Shown piece after piece: positions 34,868 to 45,122 of a stretch of DNA of 64,000 nt. The notes beneath the pieces are model-generated. The model saw nothing but the letters and a program-made list of their open reading frames with translations, searched no databases and had not been told where the DNA came from. Both the position numbers and the translations under genes were made by a program. Location: contig CASDUO010000009.1 in assembly GCA_949284065.1 (NCBI GenBank), positions 1 through 64,000 of the forward strand, in the 5' to 3' direction. The DNA comes from an uncultured Bacillota bacterium (GTDB lineage: Bacteria; Bacillota; Clostridia; Peptostreptococcales; Anaerovoracaceae). Each line of letters begins with the position of its first letter. Position 1 is the first letter of the stretch.

Positions 34868-36610
34868 CTATTTACGATCGGGCCTTCTTTTCACTTTCAA
34901 CAGCTTCATATAATCATCGAATTCAGAAGTGTCAGTCGGCTCGAACATGACCCATTTCCCATCGCCATAGGTTTTCGCTTCGTCATAGCGCCTGCAGACG
35001 GAATCAGAAAGCGCATTTCTTATATCTTCAAATTTTGTTCTTTCGTATTTGCCGAAAATAATCATAGATCCTACGCAATTTTCTCTTGCATACAGCGCAC
35101 ACAGCGTTTTGCCGCCTCTGCGGTACTTATATTCGTAAGTCCAGTTCTTACCGCCTGTGTTCCATAACTTTTCCATATCGTACTTTTCATCAACGGCCGC
35201 ACACAACTCCTGCCAAACATTGCTGGTAATCTTCATATCGAAAACCAAGCAACACTCATCCATATGTGAACGAGCGTAATCTGTCAAATCAAGACGACCT
35301 TCCTCATCATGATGAACATACAGAGGAGCGTTATAGACAAAATGGTTATCAACAAACAAATAATCACCATTGGCTGTTTTCTCTCGCAATTCCATGTTTA
35401 CAAAACGCTGAACCGCAGCATCCTGCGCACTAATGATAAATGTTTGATTAATCTTTATGGCACCTCTGCTAAAGCCATGCGGTTTTACATAGTGGCCATC
35501 AACATAATTAAACGTACCTATGGCTTCTTCAAATCCAAGTTCCACTAAACGGATTTTAGCTGCTTGCCTTGAAACACCAAAATCTCGTGCCAATGCTCTA
35601 ATTACCATTTCCATGACATCAACTGTATGCTTTGCATTGGTTTGCTTCATAAAATATGCTACATATTCTTTTGCCTTTATGGTGAAGGGGGCTTTGGGCA
35701 TTTGAATTCTCGGCGTAAGCTGATTGGCCTGTCTTTCCATATATCTTGCAGATTTCATGGGAATTCTAGAATCAACTTCTCCCAACACCTCACAGCTTAT
35801 ATGGGATGCCTCGGCATTGAAAAGTTGTTCTAATTTAAAGGCTTTTCTGTGTTTATACCAATGAACACACTCATGGATGATAGTATTGTTGATTGAACCA
35901 AGGTTACGGAGCAGATACATCTGCGGATCTACAACAATCGTCCCTCTTTTGATATGAGTAGGAACATTCTCATCTGCATTGACATCATACATCTCCGTAT
36001 CTGTATCATCGAAATAAATCTGTCCGAATACGGAAGCATCCTTACGGATGCGTTGGTTCATGACGGTAAGTTCCATTTTACTAGCGATTGCCATAGGGTC
36101 GACCCATACCGGTACCTGGTCTTTTGCCGAAGTACTAAGTGCCTCTGGAAAATTATCGCGCAAAAACTCGGTGGCCACGTCTTCTAACCTTTCATATGGA
36201 ATGATAGGAACAAGTGAATCGTCCATCGGTTCTTTTACTCGGCTTTTACCGTTATACTTCGACACACTTAAAATCTCAAAATCATTAAGATTACAGTCAA
36301 GGTCTCCACGGCAGTGTACCATGATCCATACAATGTTCTCATCATAGTTATCGTAGTGATAATCACCCTCTTGGACTTCAAACCATATAGACACGGCTAC
36401 ATCAAAGTGTATCTCCATACCCGGTTTATCATCAACCCATACGTGCTCTACATTAACCTCTGAAATTTCTGTTTCTCCAGCACGGCGAACTCTCTTAAGT
36501 TCAATACCAAGAGAGCCAAAGTTTTCATTCAGGTAGCTCTCGGCAGTTATCCAAAAATCGTTGTCAAATCTATATTTTACATATTCAGTAAATGAACGAT
36601 GCGCTACCAT
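34868..36610 (-). CDS. ImmA/IrrE-family metallopeptidase fused to a DUF3788 domain
   Basis: 580 residues. The central domain carries zinc-peptidase motif HECVH at 246-250 followed by a long helix, the ImmA/IrrE (DUF955) pattern; a helix-turn-helix-like stretch (ALARDFGVSRQAAKIRLVEL) follows near 345. The last about 120 residues match DUF3788 (WTYEYKYRRGGKTLCALY, then YDEAKTYGDGKWVMFEP). The N-terminal about 130 residues are unassigned. ImmA/IrrE proteins usually cleave or sequester DNA-binding repressors. It is the last gene of the restriction-modification operon, 19 nt after the LlaJI-type gene and with AGGAGG, so an island-linked regulatory or effector role is inferred. Confidence 0.85.
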   Translation of the reverse strand: MVAHRSFTEYVKYRFDNDFWITAESYLNENFGSLGIELKRVRRAGETEISEVNVEHVWVDDKPGMEIHFDVAVSIWFEVQEGDYHYDNYDENIVWIMVHCRGDLDCNLNDFEILSVSKYNGKSRVKEPMDDSLVPIIPYERLEDVATEFLRDNFPEALSTSAKDQVPVWVDPMAIASKMELTVMNQRIRKDASVFGQIYFDDTDTEMYDVNADENVPTHIKRGTIVVDPQMYLLRNLGSINNTIIHECVHWYKHRKAFKLEQLFNAEASHISCEVLGEVDSRIPMKSARYMERQANQLTPRIQMPKAPFTIKAKEYVAYFMKQTNAKHTVDVMEMVIRALARDFGVSRQAAKIRLVELGFEEAIGTFNYVDGHYVKPHGFSRGAIKINQTFIISAQDAAVQRFVNMELREKTANGDYLFVDNHFVYNAPLYVHHDEEGRLDLTDYARSHMDECCLVFDMKITSNVWQELCAAVDEKYDMEKLWNTGGKNWTYEYKYRRGGKTLCALYARENCVGSMIIFGKYERTKFEDIRNALSDSVCRRYDEAKTYGDGKWVMFEPTDTSEFDDYMKLLKVKRRPDRK

Positions 36611-36629
36611 AGATTTACCTCCTCGGATT

Positions 36630-38075
36630 TTAAAGATTTAGCAGGGAGACATCAAGTTTTCTTCCTGCTAAATAGTTGTCGTACGCTAATTTAGCAGGAA
36701 GGAACCGAACTTTAATACTTTCCAATCCAAGTTTAGAAAGCATCTGTAAAGAAACCTCTTCCTTATCTAACACAGCATTAGCTTCTGTCGGCAATATAAA
36801 ACAATTCTTGACAGAAGAAAATTTATGCTCATCTATAAATTCCTGGTATGCTAATTGATACAAATACTGCTTTGTTACAGATTCAATACCTGGCTGTGCC
36901 TTAGGGGGCATACTTGGTTCCAACTTAGCGTTATAATATTTTGCATCAAAAATAACAAATTGCCATTCTCCATTAACTACAGAAACAGAAACAATATCCG
37001 GTATCAATGTGTCCGTTGCTGTTTTTCCAGTTACTGTCCATAAAGGCTTTTCAATTATTTCGATCAACTTTGTCTGCTTGCTATATTTATCCTTTAATGG
37101 AATAGGCAATCTCAATGCTCCTAATCGTGTATCAAGTTGATTGTTCATGATTTCTGCACAAATTTTTTCCCACACTAAGTTGAAGCTATTCGTTCCAAAA
37201 AGTGACAAACAATCTATGTCATAGAGGCTTCCGCTATGGTCAATATAGGTATAGATTGTCTTTAAGACAAGCTGTTTTCTTGTGTTAAACTGGGTGCTTA
37301 ATTCCTTTTCTATATTATATAGAATAACTTCTTTATCACCAAAGTCATCCAAAGTTTCCTCTGTAAGGTCAACACCAACAAGTTCAAATAAATTCAGCAG
37401 TCCAGCATCCTCAAGTTCATTTGATGCAATCGTAAGTACACATTCGTGTAGACGTTTAAAATAGTCGTGGTCATCAGTAATTCTTTTCCTAGTTTGTAAA
37501 TCCACATAATACGGACGATTATTAGTAATCATTGCAAAAGTCTCATTAATCGTCTTATCCCAAATTATCTCACCAGAGCCGTTACTTTCGACTATATTAT
37601 CCGTATTTTCATATATACCATTCTCGTAATAATCTTGCATCAAAAACAGAAGCACGGCCAACAGATTAAATGACCTGCTTTCGCTGCTATCATTAAACAT
37701 CCGAATAATCTGTTCTTTCGAATTATATTTCTCTAGAACCTTAATAACCTGTGTTAATTCCCTCTCTGGATGTGTTGAAGTTAACAAATATTTAGGATAG
37801 CATTTCAAAACAATCCCTGATACAACGATGATTCCCACATAGGTAAAAACATAAAGGTATTCGTTTTCTCCGATTTCAACGTCAGAAACTTCTATATCTT
37901 CATCGACAAGTTCTGACATATCTCGCTGTTTTTCTTCTGCTTTTACAGCCTTTAAGACTCCGAATTCCTTGAGTTTACGGATAATTGAAACCGTTTTATC
38001 TTCTGAACAAGAAAAAACTTTACAAAGTTCTTTCTGCGTGTACCTTCTTTGTTCTCTTACAAATTCAGAGTGCAT
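36630..38075 (-). CDS. LlaJI-family restriction endonuclease subunit (R2-like)
   Basis: 481 residues. N-terminal winged helix (TQKELCKVFSCSEDKTVSIIRKL) and a C-terminal PD-(D/E)xK nuclease: Pro359-Asp360, then Asp377-Ala-Lys379 in FDAKYYN. This matches the LlaJI restriction family (PF09563), the McrC-like nuclease partner of a McrB-like GTPase. It follows the GTPase gene by 14 nt. In LlaJI systems both restriction subunits are needed to cut unmodified DNA. A+T-rich like the rest of the island. Confidence 0.88.
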   Translation of the reverse strand: MHSEFVREQRRYTQKELCKVFSCSEDKTVSIIRKLKEFGVLKAVKAEEKQRDMSELVDEDIEVSDVEIGENEYLYVFTYVGIIVVSGIVLKCYPKYLLTSTHPERELTQVIKVLEKYNSKEQIIRMFNDSSESRSFNLLAVLLFLMQDYYENGIYENTDNIVESNGSGEIIWDKTINETFAMITNNRPYYVDLQTRKRITDDHDYFKRLHECVLTIASNELEDAGLLNLFELVGVDLTEETLDDFGDKEVILYNIEKELSTQFNTRKQLVLKTIYTYIDHSGSLYDIDCLSLFGTNSFNLVWEKICAEIMNNQLDTRLGALRLPIPLKDKYSKQTKLIEIIEKPLWTVTGKTATDTLIPDIVSVSVVNGEWQFVIFDAKYYNAKLEPSMPPKAQPGIESVTKQYLYQLAYQEFIDEHKFSSVKNCFILPTEANAVLDKEEVSLQMLSKLGLESIKVRFLPAKLAYDNYLAGRKLDVSLLNL

Positions 38076-38089
38076 TTATGTACCTCCCT

Positions 38090-40027
38090 TTACTCGTCAC
38101 CTGCAGGAGATGTATCAGTCAAGTTTTCCGGAGCAGCTTCAAGCTGAATGTCGTGATGGAAAATTCCAATTCCTTTTTTTTCGAATTCTTGACAGATTTC
38201 CGAATAACGACTGCTGTTTTCAAAACAACCTTCAAACAATTTTGGGCGTTTTTGCTTTGCTGCATCTTCAAACAAGTACATAATTACCTTGCTCTTAAAT
38301 GTATGGATAAATTTCTCGTTATCTAGTTCCTCTCCTTCTTTTGGAACGACAATATTTCTTGCGATAAAGTAAGGACCCAATTGTTTATCTTCATTAATCT
38401 TCTCTTTTGCCAGGAAATTATTAATAGCCTTTCGTAGTTTATTCCATTCCACTTTATGCCTAGTGTTTCCGGTTCCAAGAACGACTGTCTTGCCAATCAA
38501 ATCCTTTTCGCTATCATCAATGCCTAAATATGTGAAATCCCATCTACGCTTAAAAGCAGTATCCATCGGAAAAACACCCTGGTCAGCACTATTCATCGTA
38601 GCCCAAATAAACATATTATCTGGGATTTTTATTTTGTTGTAATCATTTGGCTCTCCACCCAACTCTTTCGCAAGGTATTTTTTAATATCCTCTGTTGCTT
38701 GAATTGGATATTCACTAACGAAATCGTCATCTCTATCAAGTAGCTGGAATACCTCTCCAAAAACAGCAGCTACATTAGCACGATTGATTTCTTCGATTAT
38801 CAATAAATGTGGTTTCGGATTTCCCGTCCGAGCATTTTTCAATGCGCTTATGTATACACGCATAAAAGGGCCCGGCACATATTCATAAGCAATATCACTA
38901 GTTTTTTCCTTACCAGTAAGTAAACTTACATATTTTCTTACTGCTTTCCCGTGGTTTCTTTCCACGCTGTTGTCACCAACGGCATCACTTCCATCCTGTT
39001 TTCGGGTTTTAAATGTTTCATCTGTATAAAGCCCCAATAAAACAGGAAGTCTTGTCAACCCTTCATCTTTAAATTTGTCGAATAACAAATCATATTTTTC
39101 CTGAGCAGATTTGCCTTGATCTGTAAGAACTGATATGACATGCTGTGTGTCTTTATCCAATTGTTTTGAACTGGGATGTGTAACCATTACAGGTTTATAT
39201 GTTCCTACAAAATTCGCATACGAATAATCGGGATGAAAAGTCACACGTTCATAATCACTCTCGTTGTTCTTGCCAAGTAAATCCTTGCGTTGCTGATTAA
39301 GTGTAAAGCTTTTACCTGTTCCAGGAGCGCCAAAAATAATCCTATTTCGAGGATACTTGGATTGTAATCCAGTATTAAACATAATTTCTGTCGAGACATC
39401 ATTCAACTCAACATCTTCTTTCTCCGGAGGAGTATGTTCTGCAAGTTCGTTGATTGTGCCAGTATGTAACCAGTCGCTGTTTTTTAGGTAAAAGTACAAG
39501 AATTCCGGCTTAAAAGCGCATGCATATTCACCACGGCCTTTATCGTGCTGAACAAATCCCTCCTGCATTGCTTTGGCAATACTGTCTATTTTAATTTGTT
39601 TTGAAATCGGTGTTTCTGGAGACGCCGCATTTGACTGTATTACTTTCCATGTACAAAAAACAGTCTGCCCATCTCTGGAATATACTCCAAGGAAGACGCC
39701 TTTTTTGCCTTCTACCTGCCTGTCATAAACATAGTTTAAATACTTGGCTTTAGGCTGAATTCTTTGCTCGTCTTTGAGACCTTGTCGTCCTCCAGGCGTA
39801 GTTCCTTTTCCGCAAATATAAATATCTCCGAATCCATATTCCTCCTGATATGTAACATGGAATACGTCTTCAAAATTATCCACTTGGTTGATTTCAACCG
39901 TATACGGGAAAAGCTTAAAAGCATCCTCTAAGCTTTTCAAAACTTGTTCTGCAGAGAGGTATGTGTTTCTATTGTAATCTTCGGTTACGATTGAGCCACC
40001 CCTATTTGCAAACTGATATTCTGGCAT
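38090..40027 (-). CDS. McrB-like AAA+ GTPase restriction subunit (LlaJI R1-like)
   Basis: 645 residues. AAA+ core: Walker A GAPGTGKS at 233-240, Walker B LLIIEEINRAN near 410, and the McrB signature MNSADQG (MNTADRS in most members) followed by FKRRW. The N-terminal about 210 residues are a separate domain containing GGRQGLKDEQRIQ and VFLGVYSRDGQTVF..W, which recur in the HNH protein at 42589-43644. In LlaJI R1 proteins the N-domain reads the target DNA (to my knowledge a B3-like fold in a Helicobacter homologue). The motor would drive cleavage by the downstream LlaJI-type subunit. Confidence 0.9.
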   Translation of the reverse strand: MPEYQFANRGGSIVTEDYNRNTYLSAEQVLKSLEDAFKLFPYTVEINQVDNFEDVFHVTYQEEYGFGDIYICGKGTTPGGRQGLKDEQRIQPKAKYLNYVYDRQVEGKKGVFLGVYSRDGQTVFCTWKVIQSNAASPETPISKQIKIDSIAKAMQEGFVQHDKGRGEYACAFKPEFLYFYLKNSDWLHTGTINELAEHTPPEKEDVELNDVSTEIMFNTGLQSKYPRNRIIFGAPGTGKSFTLNQQRKDLLGKNNESDYERVTFHPDYSYANFVGTYKPVMVTHPSSKQLDKDTQHVISVLTDQGKSAQEKYDLLFDKFKDEGLTRLPVLLGLYTDETFKTRKQDGSDAVGDNSVERNHGKAVRKYVSLLTGKEKTSDIAYEYVPGPFMRVYISALKNARTGNPKPHLLIIEEINRANVAAVFGEVFQLLDRDDDFVSEYPIQATEDIKKYLAKELGGEPNDYNKIKIPDNMFIWATMNSADQGVFPMDTAFKRRWDFTYLGIDDSEKDLIGKTVVLGTGNTRHKVEWNKLRKAINNFLAKEKINEDKQLGPYFIARNIVVPKEGEELDNEKFIHTFKSKVIMYLFEDAAKQKRPKLFEGCFENSSRYSEICQEFEKKGIGIFHHDIQLEAAPENLTDTSPAGDE

Positions 40028-40040
40028 TTATCCCGCCTCC

Positions 40041-41108
40041 TTACTTTTTTTCATCTATGAAATACTGTCTACGTATTTCATTTGCTACTATCTGCGCCAT
40101 TTTTACGGGAACAGCGTTTCCAACCTGCCTCCATTGTTCCCTAAAGTCTCCACATAACTCATAATCGTCATCAAATGTCTGAATCCGTTTAATCTCATTT
40201 ATGCGAAGAAATCGATTCTTCCAATGGAAAGGTCCCATATTATTTGAAAAGCTGGCCTGAATAGTCCATGATGGACGATTTGGTGAAAGCTTCAATAGAA
40301 AAGACCAGTATCTTGACCGCCATTTGAAAATTGGATTCGGATACCCCCTCTCAGCGGTAAAATAAAGATAGTTGTCCCCAGGAGGAACAAGTTTCAACAA
40401 ATCTTTATGCTTTGATCCTGCTTGCATTTCCGCATCTTCTGGGAGATCATAGTCAATGTCACCAATAGCATCACCACAAGTTACCCACGGTTTTTTATCT
40501 CCACGATCAGCTTCAGCAACTTTCTCTGGGTCGCAATGCGTCTCTTCTGGGAAAACAAATCGCTCCCCTTCGCCACGTTTTATGCCAACGCAAATAAAAC
40601 GTTCCCGCGTTTGAGGAATACCATAATTCGCTGTGTTTACAACCTTGTATGTAATATCATACCCATATTCATCTGCTCGTTCTTTCAACAAATCAAAAGC
40701 TGCTTGATGTGGCTTATACACAAAGCCAAAAACATTTTCAAAAAAGAAAACTTTAGGCCTTATTTCGTCAAGGGCACGAAAGTATTCATATAGCGTGAAG
40801 GAACTTTCATCTTCTAGAGCCCGTTTCTTATCTGTACGATAAAATCGTGATTTTGAATACGCAGGGCAAGGAGGACCTCCTACTAAAACATCTATGTCAG
40901 TTTTCTTCATCCCTATTTTAGCAAGGCAAGCATCATAATCAATATTACGTATGTCATCGCACACAACCAACTTCCCAACCTTATTCTTCTCAAGCGTGTC
41001 GCACGCCGGTTTCCAAAAATCTGTCGAAAAGCAAATATCAAATCCCGCCTTTTTAAAACCGCAATCTATGCCTCCCCCACCAGAGAATATACTTAAAACA
41101 TTAGGCAT
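40041..41108 (-). CDS. C5-cytosine DNA methyltransferase 2 of the LlaJI-type system
   Basis: 355 residues from ATG 41108, which overlaps the stop of the first methyltransferase (TAATG); AAGGAG lies upstream. Motif I SIFSGGGGIDCGF, motif IV GGPPCPAYS with the catalytic Cys, motif VI ENVFGF, motif VIII QTRERFICVG and motif X QVGNAVP. It shares the target-region block (YPNPIFKWRSRYWSFLLKLSP) with its neighbour, pointing to tandem duplication. Two methyltransferases suit an asymmetric target, one per strand (LlaJI itself uses 5'-GACGC-3'). Confidence 0.92.
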   Translation of the reverse strand: MPNVLSIFSGGGGIDCGFKKAGFDICFSTDFWKPACDTLEKNKVGKLVVCDDIRNIDYDACLAKIGMKKTDIDVLVGGPPCPAYSKSRFYRTDKKRALEDESSFTLYEYFRALDEIRPKVFFFENVFGFVYKPHQAAFDLLKERADEYGYDITYKVVNTANYGIPQTRERFICVGIKRGEGERFVFPEETHCDPEKVAEADRGDKKPWVTCGDAIGDIDYDLPEDAEMQAGSKHKDLLKLVPPGDNYLYFTAERGYPNPIFKWRSRYWSFLLKLSPNRPSWTIQASFSNNMGPFHWKNRFLRINEIKRIQTFDDDYELCGDFREQWRQVGNAVPVKMAQIVANEIRRQYFIDEKK

Positions 41109-42169
41109 TATTCTAAACTCTCCTTTACAAACTCTATCATTGCCTTTCCCATTAAACAAGGAACCGCATTGCCTATCTGTTTTTGCACAGAACGCCGGCT
41201 TCCGCAGAACTTGTATCCACGGGGAAAAGTTTGAATAGCGGCAGCTTCCGGTACTCTCAGTCTACGGTTATCCCAATGGAAAGGCCCAACCCAAGGGCCT
41301 GGTTGAGCAGTTATTGTCCATGAAGGCATATCTGGAGATAACTTAAGTAAAAAACTCCAAAAGCGCTTATCAGCCACAAATTTTGGATTGGGATACCCTG
41401 CCCATGCAGTTAATGCTTTATAATTCTGTCCCGGTGGAACTTCACACAAATCTTCATAGTAGGTACCACCTTTAGTGACTTCATATTCCTCGAAATACTC
41501 ATCGCCTCCAAATCCCTCAAGGAACGGCCCCACAGTTGCGTATGGTTTTAATCCCGTCAACGCACATGTCTCTGGATTGCCATGTGTTTTAATTGGTTCA
41601 TTCCGCTTGAGTTCGCCCTTTGTTCCTATAATAAACAAGCGCTTTCTTTTTTGTGGCACTCCATAATCGAGTGCATTGGCTCTAACTATTTTATATTTGT
41701 ATCCGTTTTCTTCAATAATCTCAATAAACTTGTCAACAATCGATTTGTTTGTAGGATGCAACAAGCTTTCGACATTCTCAAAAACAAAACCGTCTGGATG
41801 AATATCTGTAACCACACGCAGATATTCGTCAACAAGTGTTGCTCGCGGATCATTTATGCCCTTTCGCGTATTATTTCCAACCCAATAACCTGCTTTAGAA
41901 AAGGGTTGACACGGTGCACCACCAATCACGATAAACTTTTTGTGCTCATGTTGATTAACAATATCCATAAATACACTGCTGTCAATCTGATGAAGGTCTC
42001 CCTCAATAATTTGCGTCTGTCCAAACAAATCCCTATTGGCTTTCAGAGTCTGAATGCAGTCTGCATCAAAATCTGTGCTGGATACCACAGGTACTCCAGC
42101 CATAAAGCTTGCTATATCCAATCCGCCCGCCCCAGAAAATAGACTGACGGCAATAATTTCTTTGTTCAT
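41108..42169 (-). CDS. C5-cytosine DNA methyltransferase 1 of the LlaJI-type system
   Basis: 353 residues. Motif I SLFSGAGGLDIASF, motif IV GGAPCQPFS, motif VI FENVESLL, motif VIII QKRKRLFIIG and motif X QIGNAVP. The target-recognition stretch YPNPKFVADKRFWSFLLKLSP then PSWTI resembles that of the second methyltransferase. AGGAGT precedes the ATG at 42169. Located 29 nt after the small HTH gene, so methylation capacity is transcribed before the restriction subunits. Confidence 0.93.
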   Translation of the reverse strand: MNKEIIAVSLFSGAGGLDIASFMAGVPVVSSTDFDADCIQTLKANRDLFGQTQIIEGDLHQIDSSVFMDIVNQHEHKKFIVIGGAPCQPFSKAGYWVGNNTRKGINDPRATLVDEYLRVVTDIHPDGFVFENVESLLHPTNKSIVDKFIEIIEENGYKYKIVRANALDYGVPQKRKRLFIIGTKGELKRNEPIKTHGNPETCALTGLKPYATVGPFLEGFGGDEYFEEYEVTKGGTYYEDLCEVPPGQNYKALTAWAGYPNPKFVADKRFWSFLLKLSPDMPSWTITAQPGPWVGPFHWDNRRLRVPEAAAIQTFPRGYKFCGSRRSVQKQIGNAVPCLMGKAMIEFVKESLE

Positions 42170-42198
42170 AAATTACTCCTGTTTCGTTATTTTTTACA

Positions 42199-42387
42199 TT
42201 ACATTGCGCTTTTCCCACTTTTGACCCATTCATCAACCTCAGACAGTTTGAATTTCCATTGCCGGCCAATTTTATGTGCTGGAATATCTGTTTTCTTTAT
42301 CCAATTTCTGATTGTATCCTTATTCACACCTAAATATGTCGCAACCTCTTCCAAGCTTGCCCAAGGTTCATTCATCAATTGTTCCAT
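42199..42387 (-). CDS. Excisionase/MerR-type helix-turn-helix protein, putative R-M controller
   Basis: 62 residues: WASLEEVATYLGVNKDTIRNWIKKTDIPAHKIGRQWKF, the classic HTH_17 (excisionase-family) fold. Ribosome site AAGGAGGTG is strong. First gene of the methyltransferase-restriction operon, with a promoter about 30-50 bp upstream that is overlapped by an inverted repeat, so it may act as a controller protein for the system. Not a phage excisionase by context: no integrase is nearby. Confidence 0.8.
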   Translation of the reverse strand: MEQLMNEPWASLEEVATYLGVNKDTIRNWIKKTDIPAHKIGRQWKFKLSEVDEWVKSGKSAM

Positions 42388-42414
42388 GATGCACCTCCTT
42401 ATTAATCCTCATCT

Positions 42415-42443
42415 ATTATATTCATTTCAGCATGAATAAGCAA
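42415..42443 (-). promoter_or_regulatory. Promoter of the R-M operon with overlapping operator
   Basis: Minus strand TTGCTT, 17 bp, TATAAT. The spacer is covered by the inverted repeat TATTCAT-N6-ATGAATA at 42419-42438. The 11-mer ATGAATAAGCA occurs at 42432-42442 and again at 42473-42483, exactly 41 bp apart, followed by another ATGAAT half-site. The arrangement suggests cooperative binding of a small repressor. Confidence 0.65.
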
Positions 42444-42548
42444 GATTTAGCTCTATTTTAATTGGTTTTAATATGAATAAGCATGAATTTTTGTATTTCT
42501 TATGATTTTAAAATAATGAACCCGGACATGTGTATTTCGGTATGGATG

Positions 42549-42557
42549 TGATATACT
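42549..42557 (+). promoter_or_regulatory. Extended -10 promoter of the HNH nuclease gene
   Basis: TGATATACT with a weak -35 region; predicted start about 42564 and GGAGG at 42577-42581 before ATG 42589. Divergent from the R-M operon promoter, sharing a 130-bp control region. Confidence 0.45.
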
Positions 42558-42588
42558 GGAACGTCATTAGAGAATGGAGGAAATACCT

Positions 42589-43644
42589 ATGCCCTATAAT
42601 CAAATAGCTAAAGACGGAACTATCGCTCTTGGTCCTGACCCTTTAGGTCCTACTGGCAAAGAAATAAGAGACATCATTGAAGCCACACTAAACTCTGATG
42701 GTTTCACATTTTCCTGGTCATCGCGGAAACGTCAGCCTTACGAAGGAACGCTCGATACTGGGGTTTCTACCATCAACCTATATATTTATGCATGGCGAAT
42801 CGGAAACGGAGGACGAGCAAATTTGCCTTCTGAAAAACGCATTCAAATTCAACAAGGCGTAGATAACGTTGGATTTCACCGTCCTATAACCGCACATGAG
42901 AAGACACTTTTATTGGGTGTGTACGATAGTCCCTCTGGAACTCCTATCTTTGCCGCATGGGATGCAGCCGCCAACGCCTCTCACACCCAAAAGTCGTGCC
43001 AAGTACAAGTTGAGGATTTACAAGCAGCAATAAGCGAGAATATACACCAATGCACTGACAGCCGAGGCAACATCATTTATACTTTCTTGCCTAATTCTCT
43101 AGGTGATTATATTGAGCTTGTTTCCAAAGGAAATATTCTTACATTTCCTACTGGTACTACTGGTACGCTTGCCACTAAAGTCAAAGCCGCTACACTCCCC
43201 ACCAGGAAAAAACGCACCATTAAATCTACAGAGAAGATTTTGCAACAAATTCAGGATCTATCTTCTACAGAAAAGAAAGGCATCACCAAACAACGAGTAG
43301 GACAGGGGCTTTTCAAAGACCTGTTAATGAACAAGTATAACGGCAAGTGTGCTTTATGCGGAATTAAAACTGAGCAGATGCTTATCGGTAGCCATATAAA
43401 ATCATGGAAAGACAGTTCTGCTAAGGAGAAGTTAGATGAGAACAACGGTATCTTGCTGTGTGCACATCACGATGCCTTGTTCGACAAACACTTAATATCC
43501 TTTGAGGATAACGGAAATCTTATTGTTTCAACAACGCTAAGTATCAGTGAACAAGCAGAACTTCAAATAGACAGAATACCCCCGATTAAGGTCACTCCGG
43601 GTATGAAGCCATATTTAGCTGACCACCGCTCAAAATTAAAGTGA
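42589..43644 (+). CDS. HNH endonuclease with an N-terminal domain shared with the McrB-like subunit
   Basis: 351 residues from ATG 42589 (GGAGG 8 nt upstream; the ATG at 42574 would contain this site). C-terminal HNH domain from about 254: zinc-knuckle CALCG, GSHIKSW, then ENNGILLCAHHDALFDKHLISF. The N-terminal half carries GGRANLPSEKRIQ and LLLGVYDSPSGTPIF..W, the same blocks in the same order as in the McrB-like protein (GGRQGLKDEQRIQ, VFLGVYSRDGQTVF..W). It is probably a site-specific nuclease using the same kind of DNA-reading module. Transcribed divergently from the R-M operon. Confidence 0.85.
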   Translation: MPYNQIAKDGTIALGPDPLGPTGKEIRDIIEATLNSDGFTFSWSSRKRQPYEGTLDTGVSTINLYIYAWRIGNGGRANLPSEKRIQIQQGVDNVGFHRPITAHEKTLLLGVYDSPSGTPIFAAWDAAANASHTQKSCQVQVEDLQAAISENIHQCTDSRGNIIYTFLPNSLGDYIELVSKGNILTFPTGTTGTLATKVKAATLPTRKKRTIKSTEKILQQIQDLSSTEKKGITKQRVGQGLFKDLLMNKYNGKCALCGIKTEQMLIGSHIKSWKDSSAKEKLDENNGILLCAHHDALFDKHLISFEDNGNLIVSTTLSISEQAELQIDRIPPIKVTPGMKPYLADHRSKLK

Positions 43645-44008
43645 CGGAGTTATCTACTATGAAGCATTTGCCGCAAAACGGGAACCACCGGACACCATTT
43701 TAATGATGATAAAAAAAGCCTTCTGCACACCCTCCACGGTGTTAGAAAGAGCGGTGATTCCTATCATCTTGAAACTGTAACTTTAAGGTTGCACGATAAC
43801 ATCATAGTCCTTTAGATAGAAAAACGTTTTTAAGTACTTCGACAGTAGTTCTATGCACTCAACACCCCAAAAAGTAGTTTCTGAACTCCGCCCTACCTAT
43901 AATCGAACTACAGAACTACTGTCACCTTCAATAAAAAGGGATTCTGGCAGACTCCCCCGTTCAGGGAAATCTCTCGGAACCTCCTGATTTCAGCCACTTT
44001 CGGCCTTC
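43645..44008. other. Intergenic region at the right edge of the defence island
   Basis: No convincing gene. Two overlapping plus-strand frames of about 40-50 codons at 43645-43815 (one ending GDSYHLETVTLRLHDN) have no start codon and may be gene debris. An inverted repeat and several GTAGTT words follow (separate entry). Confidence 0.4.
43841..43923. repeat. 12-bp perfect inverted repeat, 59-bp spacer
   Basis: GACAGTAGTTCT at 43841-43852 and its exact complement AGAACTACTGTC at 43912-43923. Inside, AGTAGTTTCT and TCGAACTAC are further related words. Could be the end of a lost mobile element, a recombination site or a long hairpin; it lies between the island and the decayed methyltransferase gene. 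Confidence 0.6.
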
Positions 44009-45122
44009 TTATTTGTCTTTTCTTGACAGCAGTACTATCGTCTCCACATGCTTGGTACAGGGAAAATTGTCATATGCTTTGAGGCTTTCCACCCGGTATC
44101 CGTGATGGGTGAAATAGTCCAGATTCGCCACAAGGGTTTTTGGGAGGATCCACCACTATCACATCCGGCTTCTCTCCTATATCGGGCAGCACCTTGAAAA
44201 CATCTCCAGCGATGAAACGGCAGTTATCCAGTCCGTTGAGTCTCGCATTTTCTTCGGCCGCCTCGACAGCCTCTTCCACCAGTTCCACTCCCGTCACATA
44301 TTTGGCTTTCCGGGCCAGTATCTGGGTTATGGTGCCGGTACCGCAAAAAAGGTCCCACACCCTTTTGTCATCATAACCGTCTATAAGGTCCAGGGCCTGC
44401 AGGTACAGTCTTTCCGCCGCCTCTACATTCGTCTGGAAAAAAGAAAAAGGCCCTACTTTGAACTTGAGTCCCGCGATCTCCTCCGTATAATGATCGTCTC
44501 CCCAGAGCACTTTGAGCTCATCACAGTTAACAGCATCAGCAAGACCATCGTTTATGGTCCTCAATATGCCTGTCACATGGTTCTCCAGCTCCAAGCTCCT
44601 TATCATTTCCACGAAAGCCTTTTCATCAAAAAACTCTCCGGAACTGTGATCGCTGGCGGTAACTATGTTGACCAGGATATCTCCCGTTCGTATCCCCCGT
44701 CTGAGGACCAGATGCCGCATAAGTCCCTTGTGGCTTTTCTTATTGTACTTGCTGTAACCCTTTTCTTTTGAAAACTCCAAGACCGCTTTCAGGATGATAT
44801 TGAAGTCCTCATGAACGAGCATACATCTGTCCACTGTGATGATTGACATGAATTTTCCACGCTGATGCATACCCAACGTCATGGGGCCGTCTTTGACCAT
44901 ATCGCCGAAGGTGTATTCCATCTTGTTGCGATAATGCCATTGAGACGGGCTTCCTTCTATAGGTTCCCTCTCCCGGGGCACGATCTTTCTCTCCCTGAGG
45001 GATCCATCCACCTGCTCTTCCTTGGTCCTCAACTGTTCCTCATAGGATCTGCCCTGATACATGCACCCGCCGCAAAGCTCCTTATGAGGACATTCCTTTG
45101 TGTATTTTTCCGCGTTTTCCAT
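44009..45122 (-). pseudogene. 23S rRNA (uracil-5-)-methyltransferase RlmCD/RumA-type, decayed
   Basis: The frame from ATG 45122 shows the iron-sulfur cysteines (CPHKELCGGC), the SAM-binding DLFCGTGTITQILA and DVIVVDPPK. Then it shifts: around the AAAAA run at 44137-44141 the true C-terminus continues in another frame (TLVANLDYFTHHGY to VETIVLLSRKDK, stop at 44009-44011). The family stretch between DPPR and NPKTL, about 25-30 residues including the catalytic cysteine of the SCNP motif, is missing altogether. Deletion plus frameshift implies loss of function unless a second copy exists. It is the host gene nearest the right side of the defence island. Confidence 0.88.

Follow-up and report, generated by a model that had tools for sequence, protein, structure and literature searches.

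Restriction-modification (R-M) systems usually join one methylation code to one restriction machine. In the LlaJI system of Lactococcus lactis pNP40, the genes are ordered M1-M2-R1-R2 and encode two 5-methylcytosine (5mC) methyltransferases, a McrB-like R1 and a McrC/LlaJI-like R2, with R1.LlaJI acting on unmethylated DNA as the sole specificity subunit (PMC1459862). The LlaJI R1 uses a B3 DNA-binding domain (PMC12707154), and a domain of this type is also described for its Helicobacter relative. Within the 12.6 kb that surround the pNP40 operon, no HNH gene is annotated. McrBC-like type II systems such as PcaI also combine a McrB-like motor with a McrC-like nuclease; the same Pectobacterium carotovorum genome encodes PcaII, an HNH nuclease of the VcaM4I/TagI type that is unlinked to PcaI, has an unrelated N-terminal domain and targets methylated DNA (PMC8989522). 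VcaM4I (EVE-HNH) and TagI (SRA-HNH) are encoded alone. The MTaX1 domain is only mentioned in the literature that we searched, where it is proposed as a putative discriminator of modified DNA in R-M systems and Dnd-related neighbourhoods (PMC10853773), and we found there no description of its fold or of a twin-nuclease arrangement.

A LlaJI-type cassette with a divergent HNH nuclease gene

The window that we analyzed, a 64,000-nucleotide stretch of DNA from an uncultured Bacillota bacterium, contains a cassette with this gene order and a further nuclease gene beside it. On the reverse strand, a 62-aa HTH_17 regulator (42199-42387, E 3.6e-17) is the first gene of an operon that continues with the 5mC methyltransferases M1 (41108-42169) and M2 (40041-41159), both assigned by family matches; with R1 (38090-40027, 645 aa), which Pfam and further family searches divide into an MTaX1 module and a McrB-like AAA+ motor; and with R2 (36630-38075), the LlaJI-family (McrC-like) nuclease subunit (RE_LlaJI, E 6e-50; PDLC03447, E 1e-166). 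Two 5mC methyltransferases followed by a McrB-like R1 and then by a LlaJI R2 is the gene content by which we call a locus LlaJI-type. Unlike R1.LlaJI of pNP40, however, the R1 of the window has MTaX1.

Divergent from this operon, on the forward strand, lies the HNH nuclease gene (42589-43644). Residue 6 of the surrounding open reading frame (42574-43644, 356 aa) is an 'MPYNQ' start conserved in an alignment of ten relatives, and GGAGG stands 7 nt upstream of it, so we take 42589 as the true start of a 351-aa protein with an N-terminal MTaX1 module and a C-terminal HNH_2 catalytic domain (43348-43506, forward strand; Pfam E 1.4e-12). The protein has the H...N...H motif of His-Me finger nucleases, with H274, N291 and H298/H299 invariant in 10 HNH sequences and C259, C262 and C296 likewise (numbering of the 356-aa frame), and the nearest solved relative of its HNH part is VcaM4I (6yex; E 2.9e-21 over residues 224-325). 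MTaX1 is the sole Pfam match in the N-terminal part, the NCBIfam matches are confined to the HNH part, and neither collection finds an SRA, EVE, SBD or NEco-type domain. The cassette enzyme thus has its HNH domain in common with VcaM4I and TagI, but has MTaX1 where they have EVE or SRA and is encoded with two methyltransferases; and whereas PcaI and PcaII are unlinked and differ in their N-terminal domains, the cassette genes are linked and have a module in common. Purifying selection acts on the N- and C-terminal halves of the HNH protein alike (dN/dS about 0.2 in each, window versus L003; related loci are given L numbers throughout). What is new here is a LlaJI-type R-M system together with a second nuclease that has a reading module in common with it.

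An earlier sequence-only reading of this DNA had the two nuclease genes diverge from one control region. The divergent arrangement is conserved, but an extra gene intervenes: the HTH_17 gene, detected because a supposed intergenic alignment had codon-like conservation, sits on the reverse strand between M1 and the HNH gene, is kept in related cassettes, and leaves a control region of 201 bp. Between the divergent promoters lies a 16-bp operator-like box, TATGAATAAGCATGAA (42472-42487), which in seven loci keeps a constant distance to the start of the regulator gene (84/96 matches, compared with 70-72 in shuffles). An extended -10 promoter element of the HNH gene, TGTGATATACT (42547-42557, forward strand), was identified by eye from the alignment, and a similar element precedes the HNH gene in other cassettes as well as in a solitary copy (L015); a simple consensus promoter scan picked out neither TGTGATATACT nor TATGAATAAGCATGAA. 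It is plausible that the HNH gene and the M1-M2-R1-R2 operon are co-regulated.

Several features of the surroundings were also recorded. A Peptidase_M78-like/DUF3788 protein is encoded 3' of R2 (34868-36610, reverse strand; Pfam and family matches), and on viral contigs many LlaJI-type loci have a relative of it (34-78% identity) after R2, so that it may be a standard, undescribed LlaJI companion. At the other end, a 23S rRNA uridine methyltransferase gene (RlmD/rumA family) is convergent to the HNH gene, a few hundred bases past it, in five loci from different genera (window 43645-45122, L004:11510-12886, L006:11400-12779, L007:11420-12790 and L009:1029-2396), and is apparently a recurrent insertion site of the cassette; the window copy looks broken near 44140, with a stretch lost and the frame shifted. 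The G+C content of 0.36-0.41 at window positions 35000-44000, compared with about 0.48 around, is in line with horizontal gain.

Homology and predicted fold of the MTaX1 module

The sequence-only reading had proposed that the HNH protein and R1 carry homologous N-terminal modules in front of unrelated effectors, and both parts of this proposal are borne out. PF20296 (MTaX1) is matched by residues 68-180 of the HNH protein (E 9e-24, 84.6 bits; 42775-43113, forward strand) and by residues 68-181 of R1 (E 4.1e-23, 82.5 bits; 39485-39826, reverse strand), both far above the curated cut-off of 25 bits, and is followed by HNH_2 in the former and by AAA_5 in the latter. The two proteins also align directly in BLASTP (E 1e-9 over residues 68-200), and profiles built separately from ten HNH proteins (A1) and nine R1 modules (A3) match each other with 99.2% probability (E 9.1e-20, 175 columns, 21% identity). 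This likeness is not a matter of chance. Because the profile alignment covers 175 columns, from the first residues ('YNQI..GTI' in the HNH family and 'YQFA..GSI' in the R1 family) to about residue 184, the homologous region starts at the N-terminus and exceeds the Pfam core, corresponding to 42595-43125 of the HNH gene (hhalign span). Among the ordered sequence blocks that had been listed as common to both proteins, E.RIQ, LG.Y and the W that follows F/I are broadly conserved, whereas GGR is not universal in the HNH family, being replaced by 'PAYR' in the HNH proteins of L007, L008 and L016 and absent from that of L010. A search of PDB sequences with the R1 module profile gave no significant match.

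AlphaFold2 models of the HNH and R1 modules, made from separate alignments, both reached a pLDDT around 90 across most of the module. The best structural matches of the R1 module are the archaeal Hje (1ob9) and Hjc (Z 8.4-8.3, 3.1-3.5 Å, 111-112 residues), with RecU and the SPARDA nuclease matched as well, and those of the HNH module are I-Ssp6803I (Z 7.0), Hje/Hjc and SPARDA. Considered together, both models match Hjc/Hje, RecU, I-Ssp6803I and the SPARDA nuclease at Z 6-8, values at which a similar arrangement without kinship is possible. These values are moderate, and we therefore regard a PD-(D/E)XK-like fold as a likely but not a certain assignment for MTaX1. The D...(D/E)xK catalytic residues are missing, the expected strand reading CxK or RxK in R1 and YAW in the HNH protein, and judging from the models the module probably has a PD-(D/E)XK-like fold that has lost catalysis, and is best regarded as a retired nuclease that reads DNA. 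The GGR/E.RIQ blocks fall in a predicted strand-loop-strand insertion ahead of the second core helix, which is plausibly a candidate DNA-reading hairpin.

The B3-like fold that had been suggested for the module is not what the models favour: both modules model best as PD-(D/E)XK-like, and R1.LlaJI of pNP40, a B3-type system, is without MTaX1. No B3 entry is listed in either fold search, an absence that does not by itself exclude B3 in the R1 of the window. Also set aside was a special relationship to NhoI/Eco15I of the BisI family, which scored Z 4.8-4.9, under the plain PD-(D/E)XK matches, and did not appear in the R1 list. A search of a viral fold library with the module returned weak matches only.

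Recurrence and evolution of the pairing

One scan of genome contigs, together with scans of viral contigs, yielded full-length relatives of the HNH protein at 41-87% identity. In seven loci (the window, L004, L005, L006, L007, L008 and L016), the HNH gene is divergent from M1-M2-R1-R2 with the same geometry. These cassettes come from Lachnospiraceae, other Clostridia, Oceanobacillus and prophages, which often carry them, and span at least two families (Lachnospiraceae and Bacillaceae). Genomes or records with the whole cassette have exactly two MTaX1 proteins each, namely the adjacent pair. MTaX1 is otherwise very rare, and random samples of about 800 further genomes from two phyla (about 397-398 from that of the window and about the same number from that of L007) contained no MTaX1 elsewhere. 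Because the loci were found through the HNH protein, the count of seven is biased, and a search based on R1, considering MTaX1-R1 proteins with visible upstream DNA, is the fairer test of co-occurrence. This search found the HNH gene in L018 (same contig as L004) and L019 (same contig as L016), and returned L021, which appears to be the same genome as the HNH-bearing L007; L030 is without the HNH gene, and L020 and L046 are cut. In L003 and L009, the HNH gene lies at the edge of its contig, and the rest of these bins yielded neither a close relative of M1 nor an R1, so these loci are either uninformative or orphan. No MTaX1-HNH gene occurs in roughly thirty LlaJI-type viral loci whose R1 is without MTaX1. 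With a divergent HNH gene in seven loci and the MTaX1 pairs adjacent, the co-occurrence with LlaJI-type operons is supported.

The module is also found in other arrangements, such as an R-M operon on one strand of L010 (L010:639-4163, family matches), which encodes, co-directionally and in this order, an MTaX1 restriction enzyme, a single 5mC methyltransferase and an MTaX1-HNH protein. The restriction enzyme (399 aa) matches the PADLOC type II REase family PDLC03409 along almost its entire length (E 1e-54). Its C-terminal half shows a D..DLK nuclease motif, identified by eye, and searches of plasmid, phage and viral-contig collections brought up no relatives of the enzyme. The pairing of an MTaX1 main enzyme with MTaX1-HNH therefore occurs also with another methyltransferase and another main enzyme. 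L030 keeps M1-M2-R1-R2, with MTaX1 in R1; an Mrr_cat nuclease gene (L030:8636-9988) lies between its M2 and R1, as though one accessory nuclease could be exchanged for another. The HNH gene of L015 is solitary among phage tail genes, in opposite orientation to them, and no methyltransferase is present in the 12.4 kb of viral contig seen. We attempted to read a recognition site from words avoided in L015, but CCAGG/CCTGG, which is depleted in it (1 versus 18 expected), shows the same depletion in L026 and L038, which are free of the gene; GACGC, the LlaJI site, shows no strong depletion in L015 (19 versus 25.6). Separately, L036 contains a LlaJI-type locus (L036:2761-5233) whose R1 is without MTaX1. 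Ahead of this locus are encoded a different HNH protein, whose N-terminal part is unrelated, and an NgoFVII-like restriction enzyme that combines a PLD nuclease domain with a B3-like domain at its C-terminus.

In a tree of the modules, those of HNH proteins and those of R1 form two separate groups, and module identity is 21.5% within a locus compared with 20.9% between loci; the two module trees are separate and old. Since the modules group separately and partners within a locus do not resemble each other more than those of different loci do, the pairing predates the spread of these cassettes. The same separation, together with the 21% identity, means that identical specificity is not readable from sequence, and a test for co-evolution of HNH and R1 modules from the same locus gave no signal. 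For the R1 module of L006, whose first third is a little closer to HNH modules (27% versus 21%), gene conversion toward the HNH type was considered and dismissed, as the tree keeps it among the R1 modules.

M1 and M2 show 72-94% identity, and their target-recognition regions hardly vary among loci in which both enzymes are retained, so that all these loci probably protect the same site; this near-invariance is compatible with one site common to both nucleases, without proving it. In L008 (L008:4640-7445), the AAA+ motor of R1 is 34% identical and the intact R2 belongs to another clade, while the MTaX1 module of R1 (52%) and the methyltransferases (81-85%) are retained: MTaX1 follows methylation specificity and not the motor. 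In L008, nature has thus exchanged the effector while keeping the reading module, and L016 is a mosaic with R1-R2 near those of the window and M1-M2-HNH nearer those of L008.

Possible roles of the second nuclease

These observations describe a cassette that is real, conserved and probably functional, and the recurrent pairing suggests one DNA-methylation password for two different weapons. With moderate confidence, we interpret it as a dual-effector R-M cassette whose single methylation code gives protection from R1-R2 and from the HNH enzyme alike. M1 and M2 would mark host sites by 5mC methylation, and R1-R2 and the HNH nuclease, each with its own diverged copy of MTaX1, would attack incoming unmarked DNA, the former through GTP-driven translocation by its McrBC-like motor and the latter by cutting directly, motor-free. 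The HTH_17 protein would control both promoters, timing the two divergent transcripts through the common operator box. As the HNH module is homologous to that of R1 and belongs to the same cassette, and as R1.LlaJI acts on unmethylated DNA, the HNH module would most simply target unmethylated DNA also; both enzymes would then recognize the same site in the same state, and methylation would block the HNH enzyme. Counting for this interpretation are the module homology, the seven-locus geometry, the adjacent MTaX1 pairs, the near-invariant methyltransferases, L008, L010 and the intact HNH domain, and counting against it are the low identity of the two modules with their separate, old trees, the kinship of the HNH domain to the modification-dependent VcaM4I, the lack of an HNH gene in L030 and the presence of one in L015 with no visible methyltransferase.

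The main rival, which we regard as doubtful, starts from this kinship and takes the HNH protein to be a modification-dependent (type IV/IIM-like) enzyme whose MTaX1 recognizes the site when it is modified, be it by hmC, by methylation of one strand or by 5mC in a different context. Both VcaM4I and TagI, the closest relatives of the domain, are modification-dependent, the published proposal for MTaX1 points the same way (PMC10853773), and solitary carriage by a phage, as in L015, is easier to accommodate. M1 and M2 methylate the host constantly, however, so that the enzyme would have to be silent or harmless there, e.g., through promoter methylation or the HTH protein, for which the 5mC-dependent PcaII, with a promoter repressed by the methyltransferase of the McrBC-like system in the same cell, offers a precedent (PMC8989522); the HNH enzyme could then add a second line of defence against modified phages, or kill cells from which the cassette has been lost. 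Against such a role stand the presence of the same module in R1, a subunit that has to leave methylated DNA intact in a LlaJI-type system, the conservation of the gene inside a cassette to which it is not antagonistic, and the lack of any SRA, EVE, SBD or NEco-type domain in Pfam and NCBIfam searches. An intermediate version, which we consider unlikely, has one site in two states, with R1-R2 cutting it unmethylated and the HNH enzyme cutting it with a foreign or incomplete mark (hmC or one-strand methylation), the head of both being the retired PD-(D/E)XK nuclease. If this were true, neither the lack of the mark nor a change to it would let a phage escape, and the retired head would have been reused in at least three effectors, namely an AAA+ motor, an HNH enzyme and a PD-(D/E)XK enzyme.

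The conserved linkage and the common control region could instead mean that the HNH protein is no independent restriction enzyme but assists the LlaJI complex, e.g., as a nickase or second cutter that works with R1-R2 at the bound site, but we find this quite unlikely: the pNP40 system restricts by R1 and R2 alone (PMC1459862), the gene is missing in L030 and alone in L015, and L008 keeps it despite a motor and R2 from another clade, so there is no strict matching to one motor. Very unlikely, in our judgement, is a mobile hitch-hiker (a homing-type gene or phage moron) with an unrelated target of its own that became linked to the cassette; the inverted, solitary copy between the tail genes of L015 and the many cassettes on prophages would fit such an origin, yet the same geometry recurs in seven cassettes from at least two families, the regulator and operator box are conserved, the module is homologous to that of R1, and L010 shows an independent pairing.

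On the dual-effector interpretation, a complex motor nuclease would be backed up by a simple one at no extra methylation cost. A recurrent two-nuclease cassette with a common module would show that specificity modules are reused across effectors, and MTaX1, hitherto only named and suspected of reading modified DNA, would gain a likely fold and a testable role.
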